This document shows positions 5,839-44,850 of a stretch of DNA of 64,000 nucleotides, piece by piece. The position numbers were made by a program, and so were the translations under genes. The notes under the pieces are model-generated. The model was not told the origin of the DNA. It was given only the letters and a program-made list of their open reading frames with translations, and did no database searches. Source of the stretch: Periplaneta americana (taxonomy: Eukaryota; Arthropoda; Insecta; Blattodea; Blattidae); the NCBI RefSeq assembly GCF_040183065.1, contig NC_091126.1, positions 145,230,204-145,294,203 of the forward strand. The letters run 5' to 3'. How positions within the stretch are numbered: position 1 is the stretch's first letter; every line of letters starts with the position of its first letter.

Positions 5839-6946
5839 CAGTAACGGCTGGTGGTCAAAATAATGAGTGTGCTACAATCTCTATATCGGCCTACTGTATA
5901 CACTTACCGTATATGTATTTATCTTAATTTGAGTTTCTCCTAGTGATGAAATATGAAGTCCATACGACGTTCCTTCCTACTGCAGAACTTTTCAATTACC
6001 ATGTTAAACCCCTCCATCTTGGACATCATATTCTTTTCTATTGACAGTATTGCAAGAGCAGTGAGGCGATCCTGGGACATAGTGTTCCTTAAAAACGTTT
6101 TTATGCGTTTCAAGCAAGAAAAACATCTTTCTGGCTCAGCAGTGGTCATTGGTGTTGTAACCGAAATATTTAACAACTTCGTTACTTCACAGAATGGATC
6201 CTGTGAAGTGTTGGAGGCTACGTTTTGTAACAATTGAACAGCCATCTATATTTCGGAAGTCGGGTCTTCTGTATAGAACTCCAAGTTGTGTCTTTAACGC
6301 TCTTTTGTTCAGTACAGTATAGTTGTTGACAGCAACTTCAAGTTTGCGTTCAGGAAAATTATGCGAAAAATTGTCAAAAAATTTGCTGTTTAACAGTTTT
6401 ATTGTGTCTAGGTAGCTTAAAGACTGGAAACAATAAATAGTTTCCTGAATTATATGGTCACATACTTCCTTGGCTTCTATTTTCTGGGATTCCATTTTCC
6501 ATCGTGTGCTGACTGATTCAGGAGGAACCTCAAAAAACAGGTAGATGGCAGTCGGACACTTATATTACCAAATACATTGTACATAGTTCCGAGTTCCTCC
6601 ACAAACAAGCATTCTTTCGTTATGCTTTACTTTTGCAATCTCCAAGCTGTGTCGTGCTGAAGCTGACTACAGCACTTCCTCACGTAAAAATAGCCAATCA
6701 GAGCAGTGATTTCAGCTCCGCACAGCTGCATTAATCGTCTACATTGTCGTGTAGAATTTTGAGTAGCACAACATACCCCCTGAGGCACCGAAGACGAAAG
6801 ACTAAACACTCTATAACACGTCATGAACATAACCACGGGAAATTGTCAAATGACAAATCAAATACTATGGTATTGCAAATACATTATTTGAGCAAAAATT
6901 ATCATTGTGCTGTAGTACTGTAGCACATAAAAATGGGCTGCCCCTG
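5839..6946 (-). mobile_element. hAT transposon derivative with 8-bp TSD
   Basis: GAATACAG flanks both ends (5831-5838 and 6947-6954), an 8-bp target-site duplication as expected for hAT. The ends are imperfect inverted repeats: the left starts CAGTAACGGCTGG and the right, in reverse, starts CAGGGGCAGCCC. Both lead into a similar TGTGCTAC block. It carries a remnant of the transposase on the minus strand. At 1108 bp it lacks most of a full transposase and is an internally deleted copy. Confidence 0.85.
5940..6545 (-). pseudogene. hAT transposase C-terminal remnant (ZMYM1-like type)
   Basis: Two overlapping minus-strand frames cover the end of a hAT transposase. The first holds MESQKIEAKEVCDHIIQETI, with the residues FFEVPPESVSTRW readable just upstream. 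The second holds the dimerisation-domain hallmark LLNISVTTPMTTAEPERCFS followed by LKRIKTFLRNTMSQDRLTAL and AILSIEKNM. The frame changes at about 6187-6245 and the catalytic N-terminal half is absent, so it is non-functional. It lies within the TIR-bounded element at 5839-6946, which supports it being that element's own transposase rather than a host gene. Confidence 0.8.
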
Positions 6947-7394
6947 GAATACAGTATGATCTGTATTATTCGCGGTAATGAAGGGGATGGATTGTATGGT
7001 TAATTGAAAGCATTGGATAGTTCATACCATAAAAGATTTTCATAAATTAAGTGAATAATACTTAATTTCGTAAACTCAAGCTCCTGCCATACTGCAACTA
7101 TTGGTGTCTTAATACTACAATATACAATGTTATGCTGGTTATAAATAATAAACAGAATTAAGTACAGTAATACATAGCACTTTATCCTTGTATTTTATTA
7201 AATCTCGCTCACTTGTAATGCCAATTTCATATTCTGGTGCGAAGCAAGCTAGTTTCTCCTTTCCCAAACTGCTAAATTATTTGCACTTTTTGATAGCACA
7301 ACACCTTTTCTTGCTGCATGAACATTCAGTTCTCTAGCCACTACTTTAAATCAAAACAATCAATTATTACCACTCAAACCATAGATGAATTTTG

Positions 7395-7505
7395 ACCTCA
7401 CTCACTAAAGCTTTCCAGAGATTTTTGTCTTCAGGTGCGTCTTGATGCCTCTTGGAGATATAGTTCACTTGGTCTTCCATCGGAGTCATCACCTACCAAG
7501 TGGTC
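7395..7505 (-). pseudogene. Possible LINE ORF2 C-terminal remnant (RTE-like)
   Basis: On the minus strand one frame reads DAPEDKNLWKALVSEVKIHL. This resembles the AQDRxxWRxLV tail of RTE-type LINE proteins, and a GRRPLGR-like segment precedes it in another frame. It is short and frame-broken, so the call is tentative. Confidence 0.35.
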
Positions 7506-7969
7506 TTCTTCCTTTGAGTCTTTTTTTTTTTTTTGGAAGAGATTTATATAGTCTTGGCTTAGAATATGACTTAGTCCTTTGCTTTTCACGAATGCTGCTA
7601 CTAGGGTTAAAAGGTTTTCAGAATGCCAATAAAGGACAAGATGAGGTCGAGTCTTGAAGTATGATGTCTATTACAAGAAAAATGCAATTTTTTTTTTTCA
7701 GAAAATCCCATATGCACACCATGCCATATTATTGACATTGTTTTGTACAAACATATCTAAAAACACTCCTAATTACCACCTTTTTTATTATAACTTTGTT
7801 ACTTGGGATTTAGATTAAAAAGAAATGCAAATGTTTTTGTACTACAATACTAAATTATCCAATAAAATTATTGATTTCTGTTTAAAAGTACACATATTTA
7901 TAAGCCGAAATATAGCATTACTGTATAGTACAAAGTATATTATGGTCATTAATATTTTGTTTCTTTTTT

Positions 7970-8439
7970 AACATAAATTAGCAAAGATGGTAATTGCTTC
8001 AGAAAATGAATGACCTCTATGATTACAATTTAAGGTAACTTGGACCTCAGCTTTCGTGAGATTTGTAGAACATCTGTTCCTTTCATCCCTTCACTTATTT
8101 TTCGTAACAGGAAATAGACTTTCTACATAGGCATTCGAACCTGAAATAGACAGGCAATAGGATACTAACATTAACATGTGTGGAACTTCACTTAAATTGA
8201 CTTCGGAAACAAATTGGCCCTTTTTGTATTTAGGCCTACATTTTCATTGTGTTGAGTAGTTACTTTCTCAATTATGTGTTCCTTAAATTAAAAACATTCC
8301 TCATAAAAACTGTCTACATTGAAATCTGGACAAACATCTGTTAGTTTTAAAGAATGTACAATTTGTTCAATTTTTTAAATTTCAATACAGGTTAGATTTA
8401 GTGGACTCAGATCTTCGAAAATATTTCTCAATATAGTTA
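7970..8439 (-). pseudogene. Old hAT transposase C-terminal remnant
   Basis: The minus strand contains FNVDSFYEECFNLR, then LMLVSYCLSISGSNAYVES and, in a shifted frame, RNRCSTNLTKAEVQVTLNCN. The SNAYVES block and the following NRL...LKAELQV-like block are the usual hAT C-terminal dimerisation motifs. The copy has stops and at least one frame change. The Tigger element at 8440-9337 lies immediately beside it and probably interrupted its flank. Confidence 0.55.
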
Positions 8440-9337
8440 CAGTCAACTCTGGATATAGTGAACATTCGGCTATAGTGAACCTAAATCGCTGGCCCCAACT
8501 CGCATACATTAAAAGTACATTAATATTTCTGTTTATAGTGAACCTTGTATCCTGACAAATTATTTGAAATCAGACCTTCTTGTATAAAATTAAAAGAATG
8601 TGTTGAGAACAACATTCTAAGTTTCTTACTCCTTTAGTCAAATGACAAAGGTAGGATTAGTGATTCCTAGACAATAAGCTGTAATGTAAATCCAGGCAAC
8701 ATGTGATGACCTTGCCTCACTCCACCGTCGAAGGTTTGACATTCTTTTCTCAAGTACTCTACTGTTATTTCTAATCCTCCACTGTCAAAGGGTCGCCTTT
8801 TGTTCTCAGAAACATTTCCATTATGACAGATAACATTGAAACCAACAGAAAATAAATTTGTCTTCTTTTATTAAAAGGGAACAGACATTATATCCAGAGC
8901 ATAAATGAAGGTAAGATTTCGATGGCTTTCAAACTCCATCAATCCTCTCCCAGTTTCCATTAAGTAACCCGGGAAATTCCAAGGCTGAGTAATGCAGTCA
9001 CACCATAACAGCATTTGTCTGTTTCTAGTGTTCCAACAGTGAATACACTGTATAAAAATGTCGAAGCGTAAAGTGCTTTCTTTGGAAGATATGGTGAATA
9101 TTATAAGTGACATTGAACGTGGTCTTTCACAAGCGGATGTGGGTCAACAGCATAGTTTAAGTAAATCAACTGTTAGTAACAGTATAGAGTGTAATCCATT
9201 CCACAAAAATGAAATATTTTATTTTCATGTTCACAATTTCATTTATTTCTGCCATTTAAAGTTAGGGGAGAGACACTTCGGATATAGTGAACGAAATATG
9301 CAAGTCCACAGAGGTTCACTATATCTGGAGCTGACTA
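8440..9337 (+). mobile_element. Tigger/pogo deletion derivative
   Basis: The terminal inverted repeats start CAGTCAACTCTGGATATAG (left) and, in reverse, agTCAGCTCCAGATATAG (right), and TA lies at each flank. Each end also has a second inner TATAGTGAAC motif. Near the right side is the start of a pogo-type transposase at 9058. The element is about 900 bp, far short of a full-length copy, so most of the transposase is deleted. Confidence 0.8.
9058..9190 (+). pseudogene. Tigger transposase N-terminus (CENP-B-like HTH), truncated
   Basis: ATG at 9058 begins MSKRKVLSLEDMVNIISDIE, continuing RGLSQADVGQQHSLSKSTVS. This is the N-terminal helix-turn-helix of pogo/Tigger transposases and CENP-B (typical KRKxLSLxxKVxII...SKSTVS). 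After about residue 43 the similarity ends, so the rest of the DNA-binding region and the DDE catalytic domain are missing. It sits inside the TIRs of the element at 8440-9337. Confidence 0.75.
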
Positions 9338-9642
9338 TATATGATTTTTCCAAGTTACAGCACTACTATAAAGTGCATTCATTTACTAGACCATAAATAC
9401 GGGATTTTGGACTTACCATACAAGGTCAACAAGGGATAAGCTTTTACAGTCTCAAATATGGGACACCTGGCAACTCTAGCTACTACATTTGAATCTTTAT
9501 GGATATGGTAGTTATTAATTGCCTACTTTTTAGAATTCTCCAAGAATCATTTGTAGAATGGGACCGAAATCTTAATCTATTTTCGAAAGTAAGAATTGAT
9601 TTTGCTGATTTTATTGGTTACAAAGTTTGAGTTTCTACAGAG

Positions 9643-9950
9643 TTTTTTTTTTTTTTTTTTTTTTTTTGCTAATGGCAGATACTTTTCGTCATTCGCCCAT
9701 ATGAAGCCAGTTGTGTAGACCAATTTACTGACAGAGTCATTGCCCAGGTGGCTGATCTACACTATACCCACGATGGGAGGTGATGGTGATTTGTTGGGAT
9801 GCCACAGGGGGACCAAAGTTCTGGAGAAAACCCTTGTTACCTGGACCGTGGACTTGCCCAAAACAAATTATAAATCAGTGATACACCGGAGATCGAACCC
9901 GGGTCCACAGGATTATAAGTCCAGCACTTTAGCCATCCACTGTGGCGACA
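9643..9950 (-). mobile_element. tRNA-derived SINE, minus strand, with 25-nt poly-T (poly-A) end
   Basis: Read in reverse, the sequence from 9950 starts CGCCACAGTGGATGGC and carries the B-box GGTTCGATCTCC near 9893, both tRNA-like. The body ends at an uninterrupted 25-T tract at 9643-9667 that would be the poly-A tail. TTTCTAC occurs on both sides (just before the tract and at 9951), a possible short target-site duplication. It is a different SINE family from the one at 3539. Confidence 0.7.
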
Positions 9951-10096
9951 TTTCTACTATATATAATACCAGTAATACAGGTAAAATTATTGTTTTGTAA
10001 CACTATTTAATTCTGCAGAGCAGGATTGGGATGAATGATATACCCACAATTAGCAAGAGAAATTGCACATGCGGAACTTAAACTGAAATGAAAATA

Positions 10097-11467
10097 CTTA
10101 CTTACTTACAAATGGCTTTTAAGGAACCCGAAGGTTCATTGCCGCCCTCACATAAGCCAGCCAGTGGTCCCTATCCTGTGCAAGATCAATCCAGTCTCTA
10201 TCATCATACCCCACCTCCCTCAAATCCATTTTAATATTATCCTCCCATCTACGTCTCGGCCTCCCTAAAGGTCTTTTTCCCTCTGGTCTCCCAACTAACA
10301 CTCTATATGCATTTCTGGATTCGCCCATACGTGCTACATGCCCTGCCCATCTCAAACGTCTGGATTTAATGTTCCTAATTATGTCAGGTGAAGAATACAA
10401 TGCGTGCAGTTCTGTGTTGTGTAACTTTCTCCATTCTCCTGTAACTTCATCCTGCTTAGCCCCAAATATTTTCCTAAGCACCTTATTCTCAAACACCCTT
10501 AACCTATGTTCCTCTCTCAGAGTGAGAGTCCAAGTTTCATAACCATACAGAAGAACCGGTAATATAACTGTTTTATAAATTCTAACTTTCAGATTTTTGG
10601 ACAGCAGACTGGATGATAAGAGCTTCTCAACCGAATAATAACACGCATTTCCCATATTTATTCTGCGTTTAATTTCCTCCCGAGTGTCATTTATATTTGT
10701 TACTGTTGCTCCACGATATTTGAATTTTTCCACCTCTTCGAAGGATAAATCTCCAATTTTATATTTCCATTTCGTACAATATTCTGGTCACGAGACATAA
10801 TCATATACTTTGTCTTTTCGGGATTTACTTCCAAACCGATCGCTTTACTTGCTTCAAGTAAAATTTCCGCGTTTTCCCTAATCATTTGTGTATTTTCTCC
10901 TAACATATTCACGTCATCCTCATAGACAAGAAGCTGATGTAACCCGTTCAAGTCCAAACCCTGCCTGTTATCCTGAACTTTCCTAATGGCATATTCTAGA
11001 GCGAAGTTAAAAAGTAAAGGTGATAGTGCATCTCCCTGCTTTAGCCCGCAGTGAATTGGAAAAGCAGCAGATAGAAACTGACCTATATGGACTCTGGTGT
11101 ATGTTTCACTGAGACACATTTTAATTAAGTAATCGAACTAGTTTCTTGGGAATACCAAATTCAATAAGAATATCATATAATACTTCCCTCTTAACAGAGT
11201 CATATGCCTTTTTGAAATCTATGAATAACTGATGCACTGTACCCTTATACTCTCATTTTTTCTCCATTATCTGTCGAATACAAAAAATCTGACCAATAGT
11301 CTATCTATTACGCCGAAAACCACACTGATGATCCCCAATAATTTCATCTACGTACGGAGTTAATCTGCTCAAAAGAATATTGGACAAAATTTTGTACAAC
11401 GTCAACAAAAGTGATATTCCTCAAAAGTTACCACAGTTGGTTTTGTTCCCCTTTTTAAAAATAGGTA
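10097..11467 (-). mobile_element. 5'-truncated RTE LINE copy, 14-bp TSD
   Basis: This is a reverse-oriented copy of the 3' half of the intact RTE at 56296-59519. It begins within the reverse transcriptase region (IVPIFKKG equivalent) and ends with the family's AAAAGCCATTTGTAAGTAAG tail. CTGAAATGAAAATA lies at 10083-10096 and 11468-11481 as a 14-bp target-site duplication. The frame is broken: 10700-11119 holds the RT core, with YEDD where the intact copy has YADD, and 10119-10733 holds the C-terminal tail ending in [10 protein letters not shown]. Reverse transcriptase activity is lost. Confidence 0.9.
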
Positions 11468-35036: not shown

Positions 35037-35879
35037 GTTCTTTCATGTCCTGCCTGTCAAAATACTAACAACAATACGACCTACCCCAGAGTTTTGCGTT
35101 ATTTTGGATGCGAGTGTCGAAATACAATTTTAATATTTGATTGCTATTACTAGGTTTGAAACGGAATTGTAGCGGTTTTATCCTTATTTAGTTTAACTTT
35201 ATTACTAGTGAACCATTTATTTGATCAATCGTTTGACTTCGAAATAGGACGAGACGATAAAAGTCACGAGACGATAGAAGTCACCCTCGGCTCTCTTTTT
35301 GCGCATGCGCCAATCGGTGTAGTATTTCCGTTTCTGGTGTGATGCTGGGCCCCGTTGTAAGCATAAAAATTGTTTTATTCACCGCATGCTAGATTCACCT
35401 TCGTCACAATCATATATTATTTACATTTCGGTGATACAAGTTACGTAATTATAATAATAGTGCATTGGTAGATTTCGCAATTATTACTCCAGCTCTTGTT
35501 ATCCAAGTCAAACCTTATTTTCGTATAATTGTATTCCAGAATATTTCCTCATAAGTCTTGATAGGCTATATGTATTAAGAGTTAATTTCTGGTGGTAGTA
35601 TTGATATTAAACTTGGCCAACACAATATTCCACCTACAACTTCAGAGGGGCGGCAAGAACTAGCGCTGAGGTAGTTCTGGATATTTCAACTGTAAACCAA
35701 CTTATGAATGTCGTGATATGCAAATAAATATCACCAAACGTAGATGCCAACTTCAGAGGGGCTGCAAGACACTTTGTGTGCAAATTTATAAAACCAGGGG
35801 CATCACATCCAGTAAAATTAAGAGTGATCTCAACCTTGTTAACAATTCGAAGAGATATTCCTATGTTAATAAAGCGGCG

Positions 35880-36089
35880 AAACTAGCGCTGAGGTAGTTC
35901 TGGTGATTTCGGAAGTGAAAATTGTTGAATTTATAACGGATTCTTTTTATGTAGATACAGTTGATCGTATATGCATCATAGACAAATATATGCATGGCAT
36001 AACAAAAGCCTAAACTAACCAAATCTAACCTGTCACAGATTCGTATATGCAACATGTATATAAGCGGGGAACTACTTCAGCACTAGTTT
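35880..36089. mobile_element. 210-bp MITE with 21-bp TIRs (AAACTAGCGCTGAGG family)
   Basis: The ends AAACTAGCGCTGAGGTAGTT and, in reverse, AAACTAGTGCTGAAGTAGTT are inverted repeats. The body includes CTAAACTAACCAAATCTAAC and CTGTCACAGATTCGTATATG. An equal-length copy is at 42522-42731, and diverged relatives occur near 35650, 50990-51692, 51885-51957 and 31820. No TSD was confirmed. It may be a part of the host transposon that amplified separately. Confidence 0.65.
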
Positions 36090-37160
36090 AGCTAAAAATC
36101 GAATTAATTTATTTGAAAGATGAAGTAGGATGTAGGCCAAAGATTATTATTTGAACTCTATAGAGAGTAGTGGTTTGGTTCGACTGGAACATCTCGGAAA
36201 AAGAAAATATATATTTTTTTATTATTACCGGCATAGACCTATATTCATTATTATTTATTATTCCACAGTTGAGTAACAAAATGGACAAGAAACCATCAAG
36301 AAACTGTATTACAATAATATGTAAGATGTTTACAGGACAAAAATTATTAAAACATGTAACAATGCTATACAATATTGAAGTATAACTTAATACACAATTT
36401 ATGGCATTCATAGTTGACAAATTACCTAAGCAAGTGGTTGCCCACCTGGGTGTGTGGAACCAATGTATGTTTTCAAACGTTATTTTAACTAAATTTAACT
36501 TCATCGCATTCTGTGACATATCAGCTGGCTGAAATATTTTTTATCTCACACTTCTAAGATTTTAACAGGAATGAGTTTGTCCAAGGACTTCCCTTGGCTT
36601 GAAACTCTTGCTTACATATCCGATATTATTATTATTTTTCTTTATTTTAATCTCTAGGTTCCAACTGTGTTCAGCATTCAGGATAAGACTAAAGCAACAA
36701 TAAAGAAATTAAACTTGTCTTGCTGAGTTATCAATCGAGAATTCGATTAATGTTCCACTCCGTGACTTTCGTCCAATATGTTTGGAAGCATAAAAGCATA
36801 AAAGTATCTTCATTGATTGACATTAAAATTACGGAAATATTATCTAATAAAGACAATTGTATGAAAAATTCATTCCCGATGACAAACAATTAATAGTTTG
36901 ACCAAAGAAAAGGGTCTCTTAAAATTATTACAATTATCTACTGATATCGTGGTTAAAAATTGTGTTTCCTAAAACATCTCTGTTGCAATCTTGGTTCCAT
37001 GACTCACCAGTATATCTCAATGTTTTCTGGATTGCAGTACTACACTTAATGCCATTTGCATCAATATATTTGAGTGAGAGTACATTTTCTGCTCTGGTCT
37101 TCTTGAAGAACAAATACGAGTATAGAAGTAAACATAATCTTAAGGTAGATTTGCAACTTA

Positions 37161-39795
37161 AGCTACGGTTTGTTTATGGTGATCATCACCGGACGCACAT
37201 CGCCGGCGATTATAAATGCTGGCGATGATCGTCAGGAAGTGGTATCTTTATCAGTGTAAATCGCTGTCATTTCTCATTTGTTTTGCTACTTTAACTCGAT
37301 TAAATATTTCTACATGGCCTTCTCTAAAAATCGATTATTGAACATGTCGCTCATTTGCGACAAGAGAGGCACAACTCAAAATTTTTCATTTTTGAGATTT
37401 TACAAAAATGAACTCCAAAAGTAGTATATTTTCATCGTGAATAACGACAAATACATGATTACATTATTTTTCCCCCAGATGGCAGATGTGTCTTTATTAA
37501 ATTGTTTTAATCTAACAAAATCATTACAACAACAAAGACTTAATTTTAGTTGTTACGAAGCATTCAAACTGAAAGGTTTAAATCTTTTCATGAAGAGTGA
37601 CAGAATTTGCGTTGCGTCTTTTCATTGAATAATTTTTTTTTCAGCGGCAAAGAATTATTGTGTTGTGTCATTATTTTAGAAAAGTAACAAATACTTACTT
37701 AACTTCCCTTATTATCAGTAAGCTTACATTTAATATTGTGACGGTATTTATGATTAAAACTATTTTAATTTAATAATTATTTAATGTTATGTCTGTCTAT
37801 TTGAAAAGTATAATAACGTTTTACCTTTATTTTGAATATGGTTAGTAATTTTTTTTACACGGAAATGAGTCAATTACGTTCCCATGTAATTCTAAAGCTG
37901 TCAAAACAAACATTTTTAGACAATGATGTCTGGCAGCCGGTTACTCAAACACAACTCGAATGTTTGTTCAATAATATACCGAAAATTTTATCAAGATGAA
38001 TAGTATTAATGCCTTGATTAAAAATTTAAAAGAAATAACAGTGTCCCTGTAAATGAAATAAGTTTAAAATATGTAACATGAATAATGATCTGCCCTGTTA
38101 TTTACATAAAGTAAGCATGCTAGTGTAAATGATGCTGATACAGATTCTAAATAGAATGTTTTTAATTTAACATTTTGACTTGAAAACAACTGATGTCACC
38201 TATTTCATTTGGCATGTGGGAGAAGCAGAAAGAGATGTCAATGAAGTAGGTACCTGTGTACTTAACTTCTTGGAAGAAAAACAGAAAATGTCGGCTGAAG
38301 TCATAAACATAATTTTCTATACTGAGCATTGCTGAGGACTTCTGTTCTGAGGTTCATGATCCATCTGTACGTGTTCACTGTATCCAAATTCCCAAATCTG
38401 AAATCCATTATCCATAAATTCTTGATAACTGGACACACTCAGGATGAAGATGATAGTGCCCTTTCAATTATCGAGAGCGAAGTAAAACGCGTGTCCAAAA
38501 GTGGTCCGATTTACACTCCACATCATTTTGTCTCTATTGTTAAAGCTGCAAAGAAAATAGGACGGACCTACAAAACCAAGGAAATATCCCATAAGGACTT
38601 TTTCAATATCAAGAATCTAGGAACAAATTACAAGAACGCAAATTACTTCAGGAGCACAAGGAAAATGAACGAAGTAAAGGTTTTGACAGTGCATCAAAGT
38701 CATCCATTGTCATTTTTCTACAAAACATTCTATTTCGACGAAGAATTTCAAGAAGTATAACTAAAAAAAGTTCTTCAAGAACTGAAACCAAAACCGAGAC
38801 TCCAGAATTGCCACAAGTTTATAATGAAAAAAATAGGTATAAGTGAGAGAAAAGAAGCAGATTTACTAGATCTCATTAAACTGAATCACATTCCAAGCTT
38901 CTATAAAGAATTCTTTGAATCTTTGAAAGTGTAGAGAAGTGTTGTGAACTGTATTGAAAGTGTTGTGCTGTAGTTTATGTTTACTGGGCAATTTATTTCT
39001 GAAATAATTTTGTGTAAAGAATTTCAGATCTTTTATAATGCTTTCTCAATCTAGGTTGTTGCTATTATATTATTTTTTCTAGCATAATTCATAGTCATGT
39101 ATTTAAAAAGAGTCATTAAGTTATACGGTTAATTATAAAGTATAATTTTTATAAAAAGTTATTACATTCGTTTGTCAATAAAACAACATCTTTGTTAAAA
39201 TTTAAATTTATTAATTAATGTCACAGAGCATCCTTACAATATTATTCTGTAATGACATGCCAATAAATTATTCCCTTGCATTACTTTATCGAAAAATTTC
39301 CTTTCTAGAAACACAATAATTGTGCAGTTATTGTACAACTGCAATAATTGTACAATTATTGTACGTCAGGTAAATATTCTTACTGTCATAACTAAAAACA
39401 GACATATATTTATTTAAAAAAGAACGACACAACTTAAAATAATTGTTGAAATTATTGAAATTAATTAATAATTATGGTACTATACGCTACAACACTAGAA
39501 ATATAATATATATGCAAAATTGCATTCCGTTTGGAAAATGCGTGTGCCTACAATTTGATTTCTAAGAATATGAAAATTTTGAAATGCTTCTCCTGTAAAA
39601 TTAACACTTTTTTAAGTTGTGTCACTCTTATCGCAAATGAGCGATGTATGGAGTGATATGCGTCCTGAATTTGCTTCAGAAGCAACCTCCAGCGATCTGC
39701 ACCGCGTCCAACAATCATCACTGTAAAGAAACAGTACTCATTCATTTTAACTGCCAGCAACTCCAAGCAATGATCGCCGTAAACAAACTGCAGCT
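37161..39795 (+). mobile_element. TIR transposon with TTA target duplication carrying a DUF7869-like gene remnant
   Basis: The ends are inverted repeats of 26 bp with four differences: AGCTACGGTTTGTTTATGG on the left and, in reverse, AGCTGCAGTTTGTTTACGG on the right. A second inverted block lies inside: TCGCTCATTTGCGACAAGAG at about 37348 and its partner at about 39650. TTA flanks both sides (37158-37160, 39796-39798). The insertion interrupts a hAT coding frame precisely, which independently fixes the boundaries. A 3-bp TWA duplication is typical of PIF/Harbinger, but the protein remnant inside is not a recognisable Harbinger transposase. Confidence 0.8.
38190..38934 (+). pseudogene. DUF7869-like protein remnant
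   Basis: A 143-codon frame (38329-38760) contains NLKSIIHKFLITGHTQDEDD, then SALSIIESEVKRVSKSGPIY, TPHHFVSIVKAAKK and NIKNLGTNYKNAN. After a stop, KFIMKKIGISERKEADLLDL and IPSFYKEFFESL follow in another frame up to about 38934. Upstream, YFIWHVGEAERDVNEVGTC reads in a further frame. The HKFxxTGHTQxExDSxHSxIE pattern is what I remember from insect and cnidarian proteins annotated with DUF7869; I could not check it. The frame breaks show the gene is dead. It sits inside the TIR element at 37161-39795 and is its probable transposase or accessory gene. Confidence 0.55.
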
Positions 39796-39880
39796 TTAGA
39801 GTACCTACAATTCAGCCAGACTTCGCAAAGCGACTTCAACCATTCCACTAATAATTTTATAAGTATAAAATAAAACTTGT

Positions 39881-41155
39881 TTAACACTAGAAGAACCAAC
39901 CGATCATTTGACTCATTTCGATATTTAATTAATTTGTACCTCCTCTGTGTATTTGCTCATCAATCTAGTCCTTCAGGACATTTATTGAATTTACTCTTTT
40001 TAAATCCTCTGAAAATGTCAAGTCCCTATCATTATTTATGGGGATAAAAGTACAGTTACCTAGAAGGACGAACATAGGTCATTTTTACTGGTCTGCACTG
40101 TCTTATTTTCATGCAGCAGCAAACTACAAATATTGCTGTTTTATGATCGTCTTACGCATCCTAATAATGAACTCAATAGGCCTACATTGTCCCCATGTGA
40201 CAAGCTTATTGAATGTATGTGGCAAGTCTTTCATATTACCGAAAATATTCCCTTTATGTAGACTGGTTGATACTCAAAACATAAGAACGACAATAGGGAG
40301 TTTATAACCGCTTTCCTATGACATTACAATATAGTCAATATATTCTGGATAACAGCGGCAATTCTTTTGGCAACTGTGTGAAGTATTTCATTAGTCTATC
40401 TCAAGATTTCTATTTGCCATGTACTGTAGTTATTTTGCAAACATGGCACGAAAGGGTTTGAGCGATGAACTTCTGTTATGAAAGATTATGAGGGATGAAG
40501 AATTCTGCATTATTTAGAAACACTGTCAGAAATAGATTAGGAAAGAGAATATCCAGTTAGTGTTTGTGACGAAGATGAAAATGAGACTGGTGATTTTAGT
40601 TATATCTCGCGAGATTATATATTCCAGCAGTGTCCAGGAAACCAGAGAGGAAGACCTGTCAGATTGGAGGGTGTCACAGCAGAAATAAGACCACATGTCT
40701 GCGCAAAGTATAACAAATTCTGAAAGAATCATGTATGTGTGTGCAAAGTGTAGAATCATGTACATGTGTGTGTGTGCAAGATGTGATTATAGTAATCAAT
40801 AGACTATAGATAAATTCAGAAAACACAAAATATATATGTCAAAAATATTTAATGAAAAATTGAGTGAACATGATGTTAAGAACAGAATTACATTTGAGAA
40901 ATGGCAGAATTAATATGCTAGTACTTATACACAGTTAATAAAACAATTTTTCTTCATCTACACATAACAATTTCTTCTTAGAAGAAGAGTGTATTGTGGT
41001 CTCAAATTTTGTTCTGAAATTATTAACTCGCAACCCTTTAATTATACCCACTAAGTCTGTAATAAGACGATATTTCAAATGAAAGCTGCTAATGAGACAG
41101 AAATTTAGGATAAAACGTACATGTCAAAATGACCTGTGCTGGTCGTACTAGGTAC
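39881..41155 (+). mobile_element. piggyBac-like deletion derivative
   Basis: The left end is TTAA followed by CACTAGAAGAACCAACCGAT, close to the CACTAGAAGGACC style of piggyBac-type ends. The right end in reverse, CTAGTACGACCAGCACAGG, then TCATTTTGACATG, is similar, but no TTAA remains there. Inside, at 40443, MARKGLSDELL resembles a piggyBac transposase start. About 220 bp later GNQRGRPVRLEGVTAEIRPH followed by a cysteine-rich tail resembles its C-terminal zinc finger. The catalytic middle is missing and stops are present. Confidence 0.5.
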
Positions 41156-42521
41156 TTTGAAAGTCCCAGTCTCTGTAATGTTAATTTTAACAGCAAAAGA
41201 AACATCCCACTGGAAACCGTATAGTTTTATTTTTGACAGTAAAGATATGATAAAACATAAAATAACCTTGTATTTGTATATTTATATTCAAAACTTAAAA
41301 CTGATATTTAATATAGCTACCAACTTATTAAGGGTAGTTAATTCACTACATTATGCAAATGTTTAATGAGTACAAAATGATTACCAGATTATTACAGAAA
41401 ACACTGGAGGTCCACCAAAATGAAATGTAAGCTTCAAAGGGTTCATCACACACCATATTTGGAAACCACTGATTTAGGTTATGGCAAAATATAAGGATAA
41501 TAAATAACGACTATAAGATGCAATGTTACAAATGTAAGATAATTACAGGGCAAAAATAGAGCACAATACATTAACAGAAAATAATATATAAATTATGAGG
41601 AATATTTACAGAAATTATCTTTGAGAAAATAAGAGACGATACATGGAGACATTATTCATTTAAGATAAATGATGATAAAAACAATAATACGTTAGCATTA
41701 AATAAGTGCAAAATAAGTGTTTGTTGCTTGAATAGTGGTGCAAAATTACATGTTGAGGATGTAATGTAATTAATGGAACGCACTGAATATCTGGATTGCG
41801 GTAAATAAAACATTTTTATGCTTACAACGGGGCTCAGCATCACACCGGAAGCGGAATTTCTTCACCGATAGCGCATGCATAATAAAGGGAGCCGAGGGTG
41901 ACTTTTATCGTCTCGTATAAAAGTCACCCTCGGCTCTCTTTTTGCGCATGCGCCATCGGTGTAGTATTTCCGTTTCCGGTGTGATGCTGGGCCTCGTTGT
42001 AAGCATAAAAATTGTTTTATTCACCGCATTCTAGATTCACCTTCGTCACGATCATATATTATTTACATTTCGGTGATACAAGTTACGTAATTATAATAAT
42101 AGTGCATTGATAGATTTCACAATTATTACTCCAGCTCCTGTTATCCAAGTCAAACCTTATTTTCGTATAATTGTATTCCAGAATATTTCCTCATAAGTCT
42201 TGATAGGCTATATGTATTAAGAGTTAATTTCTGGTGGTAGTATTGATATTAAACTTGGCTAACACAATATTCCATCTACAACTTCAGAGGAGCGGCAAGA
42301 ACTAGCGCTGAGGTAGTTCTGGATATTTCAATTGTAAACCAACTTACGAATCTCGTGATATGCAAATAAATATCACCAAACGTAGGTGCCAACTTCAGAG
42401 GGGCTGCAAGACACTTTGTGTCCAAATTTATAAAACCAGGGGCATCACATCCAGTAAAATTAAGAGTGATCTCAACCTTGTTAACAATTCGAAGAGATAT
42501 TCCTATGTAAATAAAGCGGCG

Positions 42522-42731
42522 AAACTAGCGCTGAAGTAGTTCTGGTGATTTCGGAAGTGAAAATTGTTGAATTTATAAGGGTTTCTTTTTATGTAGATAC
42601 AGTTGATCGTATATGCATCATAGACAAATATATGCATGGCGTAACAAAACCCTAAACTAACCAAATTTAACCTGTCACAGATTCGTATATGCAACATGTA
42701 TATAAGCGGGGAATTACTTCAGCACTAGTTT
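42522..42731. mobile_element. Second 210-bp MITE of the AAACTAGCGCTGA family
   Basis: Same length and position relative to the surrounding transposon as the copy at 35880-36089, so it was present before the two transposon copies diverged rather than inserted separately. Confidence 0.65.
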
Positions 42732-43304
42732 AGCCAAAAATTGAATTAATTTGTTTGAAAGATGAAGTAGGTTATAGGCCAAAGATTATTATTTGAACTC
42801 TATAGAAAGTAGTGGTTTGGTTCGACTGGAACATCTCGGAAAAAAGAAGATATATATATATTTTTTTATTATTACCGGTATAGACCTATATTCATTATTA
42901 TTTATTATTCCACAGTTGAGTAACAAAATGGACAAGGAACCAACCAAAAGAACAAATCGGGACACCCTTAGAACAATAGCATTTTAAATATCATGGTAAA
43001 TTAGGAAACATACCACTAACTTTATGACTTCCTGTAGGCCCTAAATGTTTTTATCCATCTAAATCACTGATAGAGGAGGTCAGCTGTCGAACATGTTAGT
43101 AAAGCAATTCACAATGCCGCTATCTTTCCTGAATTTGAGATCGGTGAATCTTCACACACGCAACAGAGTGACTCCACTTCTCTATCCATGATCCACATTT
43201 TTGTAGTTCGGTTCAAATCTATGAACTATTGGGATCGAACAGTAATGGTCCTAAGTCTTACCAAGCGGAAATGACACAGAGCTAACAGTTAATTAACAGT
43301 GTAT

Positions 43305-43604
43305 GGTAATTATGTAGTAATAATCGGCCAGGCCTCCATATTCCCGCAATAGAGGTCCAGGGCACCTTCGTTATCATATGTATTTTCTTTTATTAAATTT
43401 CGTTTGTATATGATTAACTTGTCATCCAGTATCCACTTTACACCCTGGATCTCTGTTGTAGTAAGATGATGGCCTGGCCGATATGACCTGTCGATGGTTT
43501 GTTTCTACACAATTATTAAAATATATGTGTATACTTGGTAATGTATCTATCCTGGATCTCTATTACGGGAAGATGGCCTGGCTGATGATTACTACTTAAT
43601 TACC
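43305..43604. mobile_element. 300-bp MITE with ~52-bp TIRs
   Basis: GGTAATTATGTAGTAATAAT with CGGCCAGGCCTCCATATTCC on the left is repeated in reverse at 43550-43604, with some mismatches. A further inner copy of CTGGATCTCTGTTGTAGTAA and ATGGCCTGGCCGAT lies near 43445-43485. No coding sequence; TSD not resolved. Confidence 0.7.
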
Positions 43605-44197
43605 CAAAATTTAAAACTAACCATTATCAACGCTCGTTTTTAGGTTGATTTTTTTTTTTGTTATGATCGTCGTCGTAGGTGTGTGCTCGTTAATTGATTA
43701 GCAACGGCTATATAACTACTGATAATGGATAAATGCTTAATAAAGAAAATTGTCCCCACTGAAAGTGCAGTGAACGGGAATACAATGATAAATTGGGTCA
43801 TATTAATGACAGTGAAATTAATGACTCATCGTCGGGTGGCGATCAAAACCTTGTAATTCCAAAACTGAAAATTTTACAAGAGAAAGATATAATATTACTG
43901 ATACGATATCATGTTCACGTGCTCTATTTTATGTACATGTCTTAAATGTCTGTTTAAATTCGACTGTTTACTAAATATGGTACTGCAATGTTTGCATACC
44001 ACAGGCATTATTACAGAAGTTTGAAAACTAATCCATCAATCTCGAATGAAAGTAAAAGAAATCCAGTTCACAATTACTGCGGTAAATAAAACATTTTTAT
44101 GCTTACAACGGGGCTCAGCGTCACACCGGAAGCGGAATTTCTTCACCGATAGCGCATGCGCAATAAAGGGAGCCGAGGGTGACTTTTATCGTCTCGT

Positions 44198-44850
44198 GAA
44201 ATAGGCCTACTTCTTATAAGCTACAGCTCATCGTCTTCTTATATAAGCAGTAAGGACAGAAGGAGCAGAAATAAAGGATGCCGGTGTCGAAATACAGTTT
44301 TAATATTGTATTGCTATTTGTTTTTCACTGGGTCTGAAACGGAATTGTATTGGTTTTATCCGTATTTAGTTTAAATGCATTACCAGTGAACCATTTATTT
44401 TGTTTATGCCGGGCGTTGTTACACATTTATGGATGAAAAAAAAAATGCTGCTAATTAACAAAACTATGGACTTAACTTCATAAAATTTACATGAAATATG
44501 ATATATCAGTTGTCTTTTTCCTTTTGACATTGTAGTTATATGCAGCACACACAACAGGCATGTTTTTTCTTCGTTTTATTGTACTGCTTACCTCCGTTAT
44601 ACAACATTGTAAGCAGACGAATTTTTACAAAGGTGGGCGCTTAGCTCAGATCTGCCGTGTTTCGCGGTGGCACCGCAAAGAGCGCTGTACAGGACAACAT
44701 GGCCACTCTATAGTCTTCTCTTTCTAACTCGTTGGTGTCGGAGGTGAGCGACTGTGGTATTACTGTAGAGTGGCTATAACGCCTGGTCGAAAACAGTTGA
44801 ACATTAGTTCGCCATGTTTTGCTTGGTCAATACATAAGGGCGTGATTCAA
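44198..44850 (+). repeat. Right flank of the interrupted older element
   Basis: It contains the second copy of the direct repeat found at 35100-35225, here at 44288-44402. A GC-rich end (44640-44830) includes TCTTTCTAACTCGTTG, the reverse of ACGAGTTAGAAAGA at 34275. It may be the distal end of the element whose left part is at 34200-35240. Confidence 0.4.

Follow-up and report, generated by a model that had tools for sequence, protein, structure and literature searches.

Nested transposons in the Periplaneta americana genome point to DUF7869 proteins as probable transposases

A nest of transposons on contig C10

The window (the whole 64,000-nucleotide stretch that was analyzed, which sits on the large contig C10 of the 3.23-Gb genome that we searched) holds a set of transposons nested one inside another. 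The whole nest is carried by a host element of ~6.65 kb with ~120-bp inverted ends (positions 35266 to 41916, no strand assigned), which was delimited by its copies elsewhere in the genome. An open frame of this element is interrupted, and translation of the rejoined frame places its 5′ part at positions 36923 to 37160 and its 3′ part at positions 39799 to 39848, both on the forward strand.

A preliminary description of the locus had treated the 2635 bp at the interruption as a single transposon with a 3-bp TWA target and a DUF7869-like gene. The length of the interval is correct. Its inverted ends are found at positions 37157 to 37186 and 39770 to 39799 (30 nt, 83% complementary), and the forward strand reads TTA at positions 37158 to 37160 and again at 39796 to 39798. 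The interval is not one element, however: within it lies another element, 2296 bp long, that has its own pair of TIRs and is flanked by an ATGT duplication. What had been described as one transposon is thus two nested elements, an outer MITE and an inner element of the DUF7869 type. The MITE, recognized from its copies elsewhere, is split on the forward strand into a left part of 187 bp that includes the first ATGT (37161 to 37347) and a right part of 148 bp (39648 to 39795). The inner element occupies positions 37348 to 39643 of the forward strand, as delimited by its copies elsewhere, its ends, and its duplications. Inverted-repeat and end-pattern searches place its left TIR (CGCTCATTTGCGACAAGAG...) at 37348 to 37381 on the forward strand and its right TIR at 39610 to 39643 on the reverse strand. 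It begins CGCTCATTTGCG and has ATGT at either side (37344 to 37347 and 39644 to 39647, forward strand), as read from the flanks.

When the interval is removed with one TTA, a single 96-aa open frame results, ending ...VDLQLRVPTIQPDFAKRLQPFH. As had been proposed, the frame of one element is broken by a second that has TIRs and a TWA target of 3 bp. The name given to that frame fared less well: a search of the rejoined 96 aa for a hAT domain gave no Pfam match up to E 10, so hAT is at most a tentative label.

The host element occurs in 11 other places at 97 to 100% identity (best 24 of 21206 candidates), and nine of these copies reach both ends to within ~15 bases. The copy at C11:80587550 stops at query position 10524, and the one at C14:89288750 consists of the right part alone (query 6683 to 10917). 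The recurrence of the host unit explains why the nest is found at high identity on several chromosomes. Abutting the host element, in the same orientation and with related ~120-bp inverted ends, is a 2.28-kb element (positions 41917 to 44198) that has more than 10 copies elsewhere at 98 to 99% identity.

The TWA target belongs to the outer MITE

The MITE end sequence AGCTRCRGTTTGTTTAYGG has 421 matches in the genome (211 + 210), while the same pattern read backwards, used as a control, has none. Among the first 100 of the 421 matches there are 18 facing end pairs within 3 kb. Twelve of these pairs measure 278 to 381 bp and thus leave no room for a transposase gene; two further pairs belong to copies of the nest, and the remaining ones measure 550 bp, about 1.4 kb (two pairs), and 2.7 kb. 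TTA or TAA duplications flank all nine independent MITE copies that were picked from facing end pairs among the matches listed (the window copy being extra), each copy at a different site. Because nine end pairs at different sites all have TTA or TAA, the outer element is a Harbinger-like MITE of ~335 bp, and the TWA target is its own. The left 186 bp of the MITE also have many copies in the genome (best 40 of 955 candidates). The 3-bp TWA duplication and the short TIRs are features shared with PIF/Harbinger; the difference is that no transposase partner was found for the MITE, the longer intervals read being one 2.7-kb case. In that case (C2:141027344-141030081), the MITE copy, flanked by TTA at either end, is interrupted by an insert whose 365-aa frame we take to be reverse-transcriptase-like.

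Eight MITE copies that have no insert were fetched, and all eight share one host flank. Seven of them carry an unbroken single ATGT at the point where the inner element is inserted in the window, which makes the empty site exact. A further observation concerns L100 (C17:4192053-4192463), a MITE without the inner element that has a small deletion or replacement exactly at the insertion site. Three variants of L100 recur in all or almost all of the 13 copies that bear the insert; at one site, however, none of the 13 agrees with L100, and at another 11 of them do not. The change may have been left by excision or may have arisen by chance in a sister copy, and because of this ambiguity we did not use it as evidence.

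The inner element is a separate transposon with a 4-bp target

Outside the MITE, the inner element is present, whole or partial, at 26 further loci with other flanks (L021 and L023 to L047), some of them fragments. We tabulated flanks for 29 rows (the window, L021 to L047, and a copy on C2), of which 25 could be read at both ends; the flank pair is missing for L022, L044, L046, and L047. Matching 4-bp flanks were found in 22 of the 25 copies. They are mostly ATAT, with ATGT, ACAT, ATTT, AATT, and TTTT also seen. The flanks of L024, L030, and L036 do not match. Allowing up to two mismatches, the left-end pattern of the inner element has 201 matches in the genome (97 + 104) and none in the control.

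A whole-genome search with the 2.64-kb interval returned, among the best 40 of 1260 candidates, 13 full-length copies including that of the window and a ladder of shorter copies that cover only about positions 190 to 2490 of the interval. All 13 full-length copies scored carry both sets of ends together, as would be the case if a single TWA element had captured a DUF7869 gene, which is how the preliminary description read the locus. The 12 sister copies, however, have their flanking host sequence in common (seven of them were checked 1.5 kb out on each side, and the flanks are shared), and they therefore represent a single insertion event that was copied along with the host. Moreover, the inner element is found outside the MITE and the MITE is found without the inner element. 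Given these solo copies and empty sites, we reject capture by one composite element, to which we assign only a very remote chance. The TWA target had been linked to DUF7869 wrongly: the DUF7869 remnant belongs to the nested inner element, whose ends are different and whose target is 4 bp long. For DUF7869, the outer MITE is a landing site and nothing beyond. The case shows how a gene may be assigned the wrong target-site duplication when insertions are nested.

In our best explanation, the small TWA-target MITE inserted into the ~6.65-kb TIR element, a 2.3-kb non-autonomous DUF7869-type transposon inserted into the MITE, and the ~6.65-kb host element subsequently spread, carrying both the MITE and the inner element.

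The DUF7869 remnant of the inner element

The open reading frames, Pfam, and alignments together place a DUF7869 remnant at positions 38326 to 38757 of the forward strand. It comprises the third acidic motif (GHTQDEDDSALSIIE) together with what follows this motif, whereas the region of the first two acidic motifs is missing. The resemblance is real though weak in Pfam, where the E value of 0.063 is under the curated cut-off: in a pairwise comparison with a DUF7869 protein, 48 of 141 residues (34%) are identical (E = 1e−24 for the pair). On the DUF7869 protein, the alignment starts just past the second acidic motif, so that the third falls within it. In the whole-genome search, a 96-aa piece of the remnant gave an E value of 1.5e−8.

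The inner element probably arose from a DUF7869 transposon by deletion. Because it has no gene part bearing two of the three acidic motifs, the window element presumably moved in trans. No full-length partner with exactly its ends was seen among the 100 matches listed of the 201 to its left-end pattern. Its TIRs and those of a 3195-bp DUF7869 family described below are alike at 22 of 39 positions, and a proportion of 0.0002 of shuffles did as well; this likeness suggests cross-mobilization only. One copy of the inner element, L042, has a different DUF7869 match (C16:109012858-109013232) as a neighbor at a distance of only ~140 bp.

DUF7869 genes lie between several kinds of inverted ends

A search for PF25273 gave 150 scored matches in the genome from 2969 first-look candidates, and no match in 14 control genomes. 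Fuller DUF7869 genes are enclosed by inverted ends of three or more further kinds that clearly differ from one another, and their duplications are 4 bp long and mostly AWWT. Among the fuller DUF7869 elements examined, none has the ends of the outer MITE. Counted by sequence, the kinds of ends besides that of the inner element number at least four, two of which are alike (CGCACC..., GGATAC..., GAATAC..., and GAAGGG...).

A young family was recognized from a 590-aa stop-to-stop frame related to the window remnant, which scores 28.2 bits against Pfam DUF7869 (cut-off, 26) and is flanked by inverted arms of 39 nt, ATAT being part of these arms. The element is 3195 bp long with 35-bp ends, and its five full-length copies (on C2, C5 [two], C15, and C9) are 99 to 100% identical. 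Their duplications (ATAT, ATAG, ATAT, ATTA, and ATAT) are perfect in all five. The 96-aa match stretch is free of stops in four copies (frames of 590, 590, 590, and 544 aa) and contains a TAA in one. Two deletion derivatives were read at both ends, one with ATAT on both sides and one with unmatched flanks.

A second family came to light inside a copy of the inner element. The copy at C2:5990391-5995360 holds an insertion of 2.68 kb that has perfect inverted ends of 23 bp (GGATACTTTAAATAACAAAGGTG), AATT on either side, and a strong DUF7869 domain (2.7e−15); the AATT site that it fills corresponds to positions 39346 to 39349 of the forward strand in the window. We had considered this 4969-bp copy as an autonomous parent of the inner element and rejected it, because the extra 2.68 kb had inserted separately, as its different ends and the AATT on both sides show. 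Elements of this type have ends of at least 23 bp and measure about 2.7 to 2.8 kb. The ends of ten more copies were fetched, of which one pair has N on one side and nine are usable. Six of the nine have perfect duplications (AATT in three, AACT, ATAT, and ATTT), and the three rows that are off by one base are copies of one duplicated site. The 2.7-kb DUF7869 element also has copies on C10 (117693573-117710850) and C67 whose flanks are the same; two of these copies are inverted, as in a duplicated or palindromic segment.

An automatic scan of 31 loci for duplications did not single out 4 bp (loci with duplications of 2, 3, 4, 5, 6, and 8 bp numbered 15, 5, 12, 0, 5, and 4, respectively; a control in which the right half was reversed gave 0 of 31 at 4 bp). 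Since 5 of the 12 results at 4 bp are internal repeats, only ends checked by hand are counted here, and the scan was replaced by inspection of the ends by eye. Among the 30 best-scoring DUF7869 loci, viewed within 1.5-kb flanks, six have both ends in view, along with a 4-bp duplication that matches (L050, L061, L062, L065, L070, and L074); both ends were not in view at other loci. L073 has both GGATAC-type ends with unlike flanks (ATGT versus AATT), and L069, which has a 625-aa frame, has both inverted ends, its left flank being cut by the edge of the locus. Five of these loci (L050, L061, L062, L065, and L074) are DUF7869 elements of 1.3 to 2.3 kb with GGATACTTTAAAGTAGAA ends, AATT or ATTT duplications, and a partial gene only (frames of 159 to 235 aa).

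A probable transposase with candidate catalytic residues

Five acidic residues (D382, D458, D500, D502, and E507, numbered as in L069) are invariant in four DUF7869 proteins, of which the other three are 39 to 48% identical to the first. The first D closes a hydrophobic stretch (VTVDLQ), the second closes another (WSDNC), and the third acidic group follows a hydrophobic stretch and opens a likely helix (GHSFLPCDRDFAMIE). Judged from the sequences, the order and spacing of these residues would fit an RNase H core. In an alignment of ten rows, D500 and E507 are conserved at 90% or more. The exceptions (L058 has N at position 458, L048 is without E507, and L079 is without D502) leave the third acidic residue ambiguous and indicate that some copies are probably dead. 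Searches for relatives elsewhere gave no significant match among PDB sequences of solved structures and none in PHROGs (best E value, 0.11). Pattern matches in viral contigs (1 and 52) and in bacterial and archaeal genomes (67) were in no case confirmed by tblastn.

DUF7869 is most likely a transposase, and very probably one of the inner element's kind and not of the outer's. Taken jointly with the nested structure of the locus, this is our best explanation of the data, and we hold it with considerable confidence; the earlier suspicion that DUF7869 is a protein of mobile elements was right. A cut-and-paste transposase, rather than replicative movement, would most simply account for the duplications at inverted ends together with the empty sites and the copies that are nearly identical. 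We hypothesize that the DUF7869 protein would use an RNase-H-like D-D-D/E center to cut at its own TIRs, and that insertion would occur at target sites rich in AT (mostly AWWT), where a stagger of 4 bp would give rise to the 4-bp duplications. It is also conceivable that DUF7869 is a passenger or accessory protein that rides along while another, unseen protein moves the elements. The window element is without a full gene, and the transposase role is deduced from sequence features, both of which would accommodate such a passenger. Yet in the 4.5-kb locus of the 3195-bp family the DUF7869 protein is the sole open reading frame of at least 90 aa with a start codon, and the gene, which keeps its conserved acidic residues, is found again within ends of three or more further kinds that are clearly distinct. 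We therefore consider the passenger role improbable and retain the transposase role, which gives a Pfam family of unknown function a testable one. Where inverted ends and 4-bp duplications enclose a DUF7869 gene, it should be annotated as a transposon and not as a host gene.

Comparison with known transposon superfamilies

DUF7869 elements differ from PIF/Harbinger in having 4-bp duplications and not 3-bp TWA. Kolobok and piggyBac also share with them 4-bp duplications; both are, however, TTAA-specific, and none of the matched duplications at the hand-checked ends of DUF7869 elements is TTAA.

The closest resemblance is to Sola2. A review describes Sola elements as having DDD transposases, 4-bp target-site duplications, sizes of mostly 2 to 9 kb, and TIRs of 11 to 1124 bp (PMC10741241). 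Another paper reports Sola2-type elements of two social amoebae with AWWT duplications (ATAT, AAAT, and ATTT), consistent with Sola2, and a transposase of 888 aa (PMC3627910). The DUF7869 elements match these descriptions in their 4-bp, AT-rich duplications, which in three families are mostly ATAT, AATT, and ATTT and fit AWWT, in having TIRs, and in sizes roughly within the 2- to 9-kb range (3195 bp; about 2.7 to 2.8 kb); their candidate acidic residues may likewise correspond to the DDD as published. On the other side, the likeness is one to published descriptions; the DUF7869 frames (590 to 625 aa) are shorter than the 888-aa Sola2-type protein; and some duplications here are not AWWT (ATGT, ACAT, AACT, ATAG, ATTA, and TTTT). 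On balance, we lean somewhat toward DUF7869 elements being members of the Sola2 group.

It is rather unlikely, though less so than the passenger role, that DUF7869 instead represents a distinct, unrecognized superfamily of eukaryotic 4-bp-target transposases that is Sola2-like in its duplications only and has at least one family that is young and possibly still mobile here. The word DUF7869 occurs in none of the papers covered by a search for it. The young, nearly identical 3195-bp family offers a natural test system.
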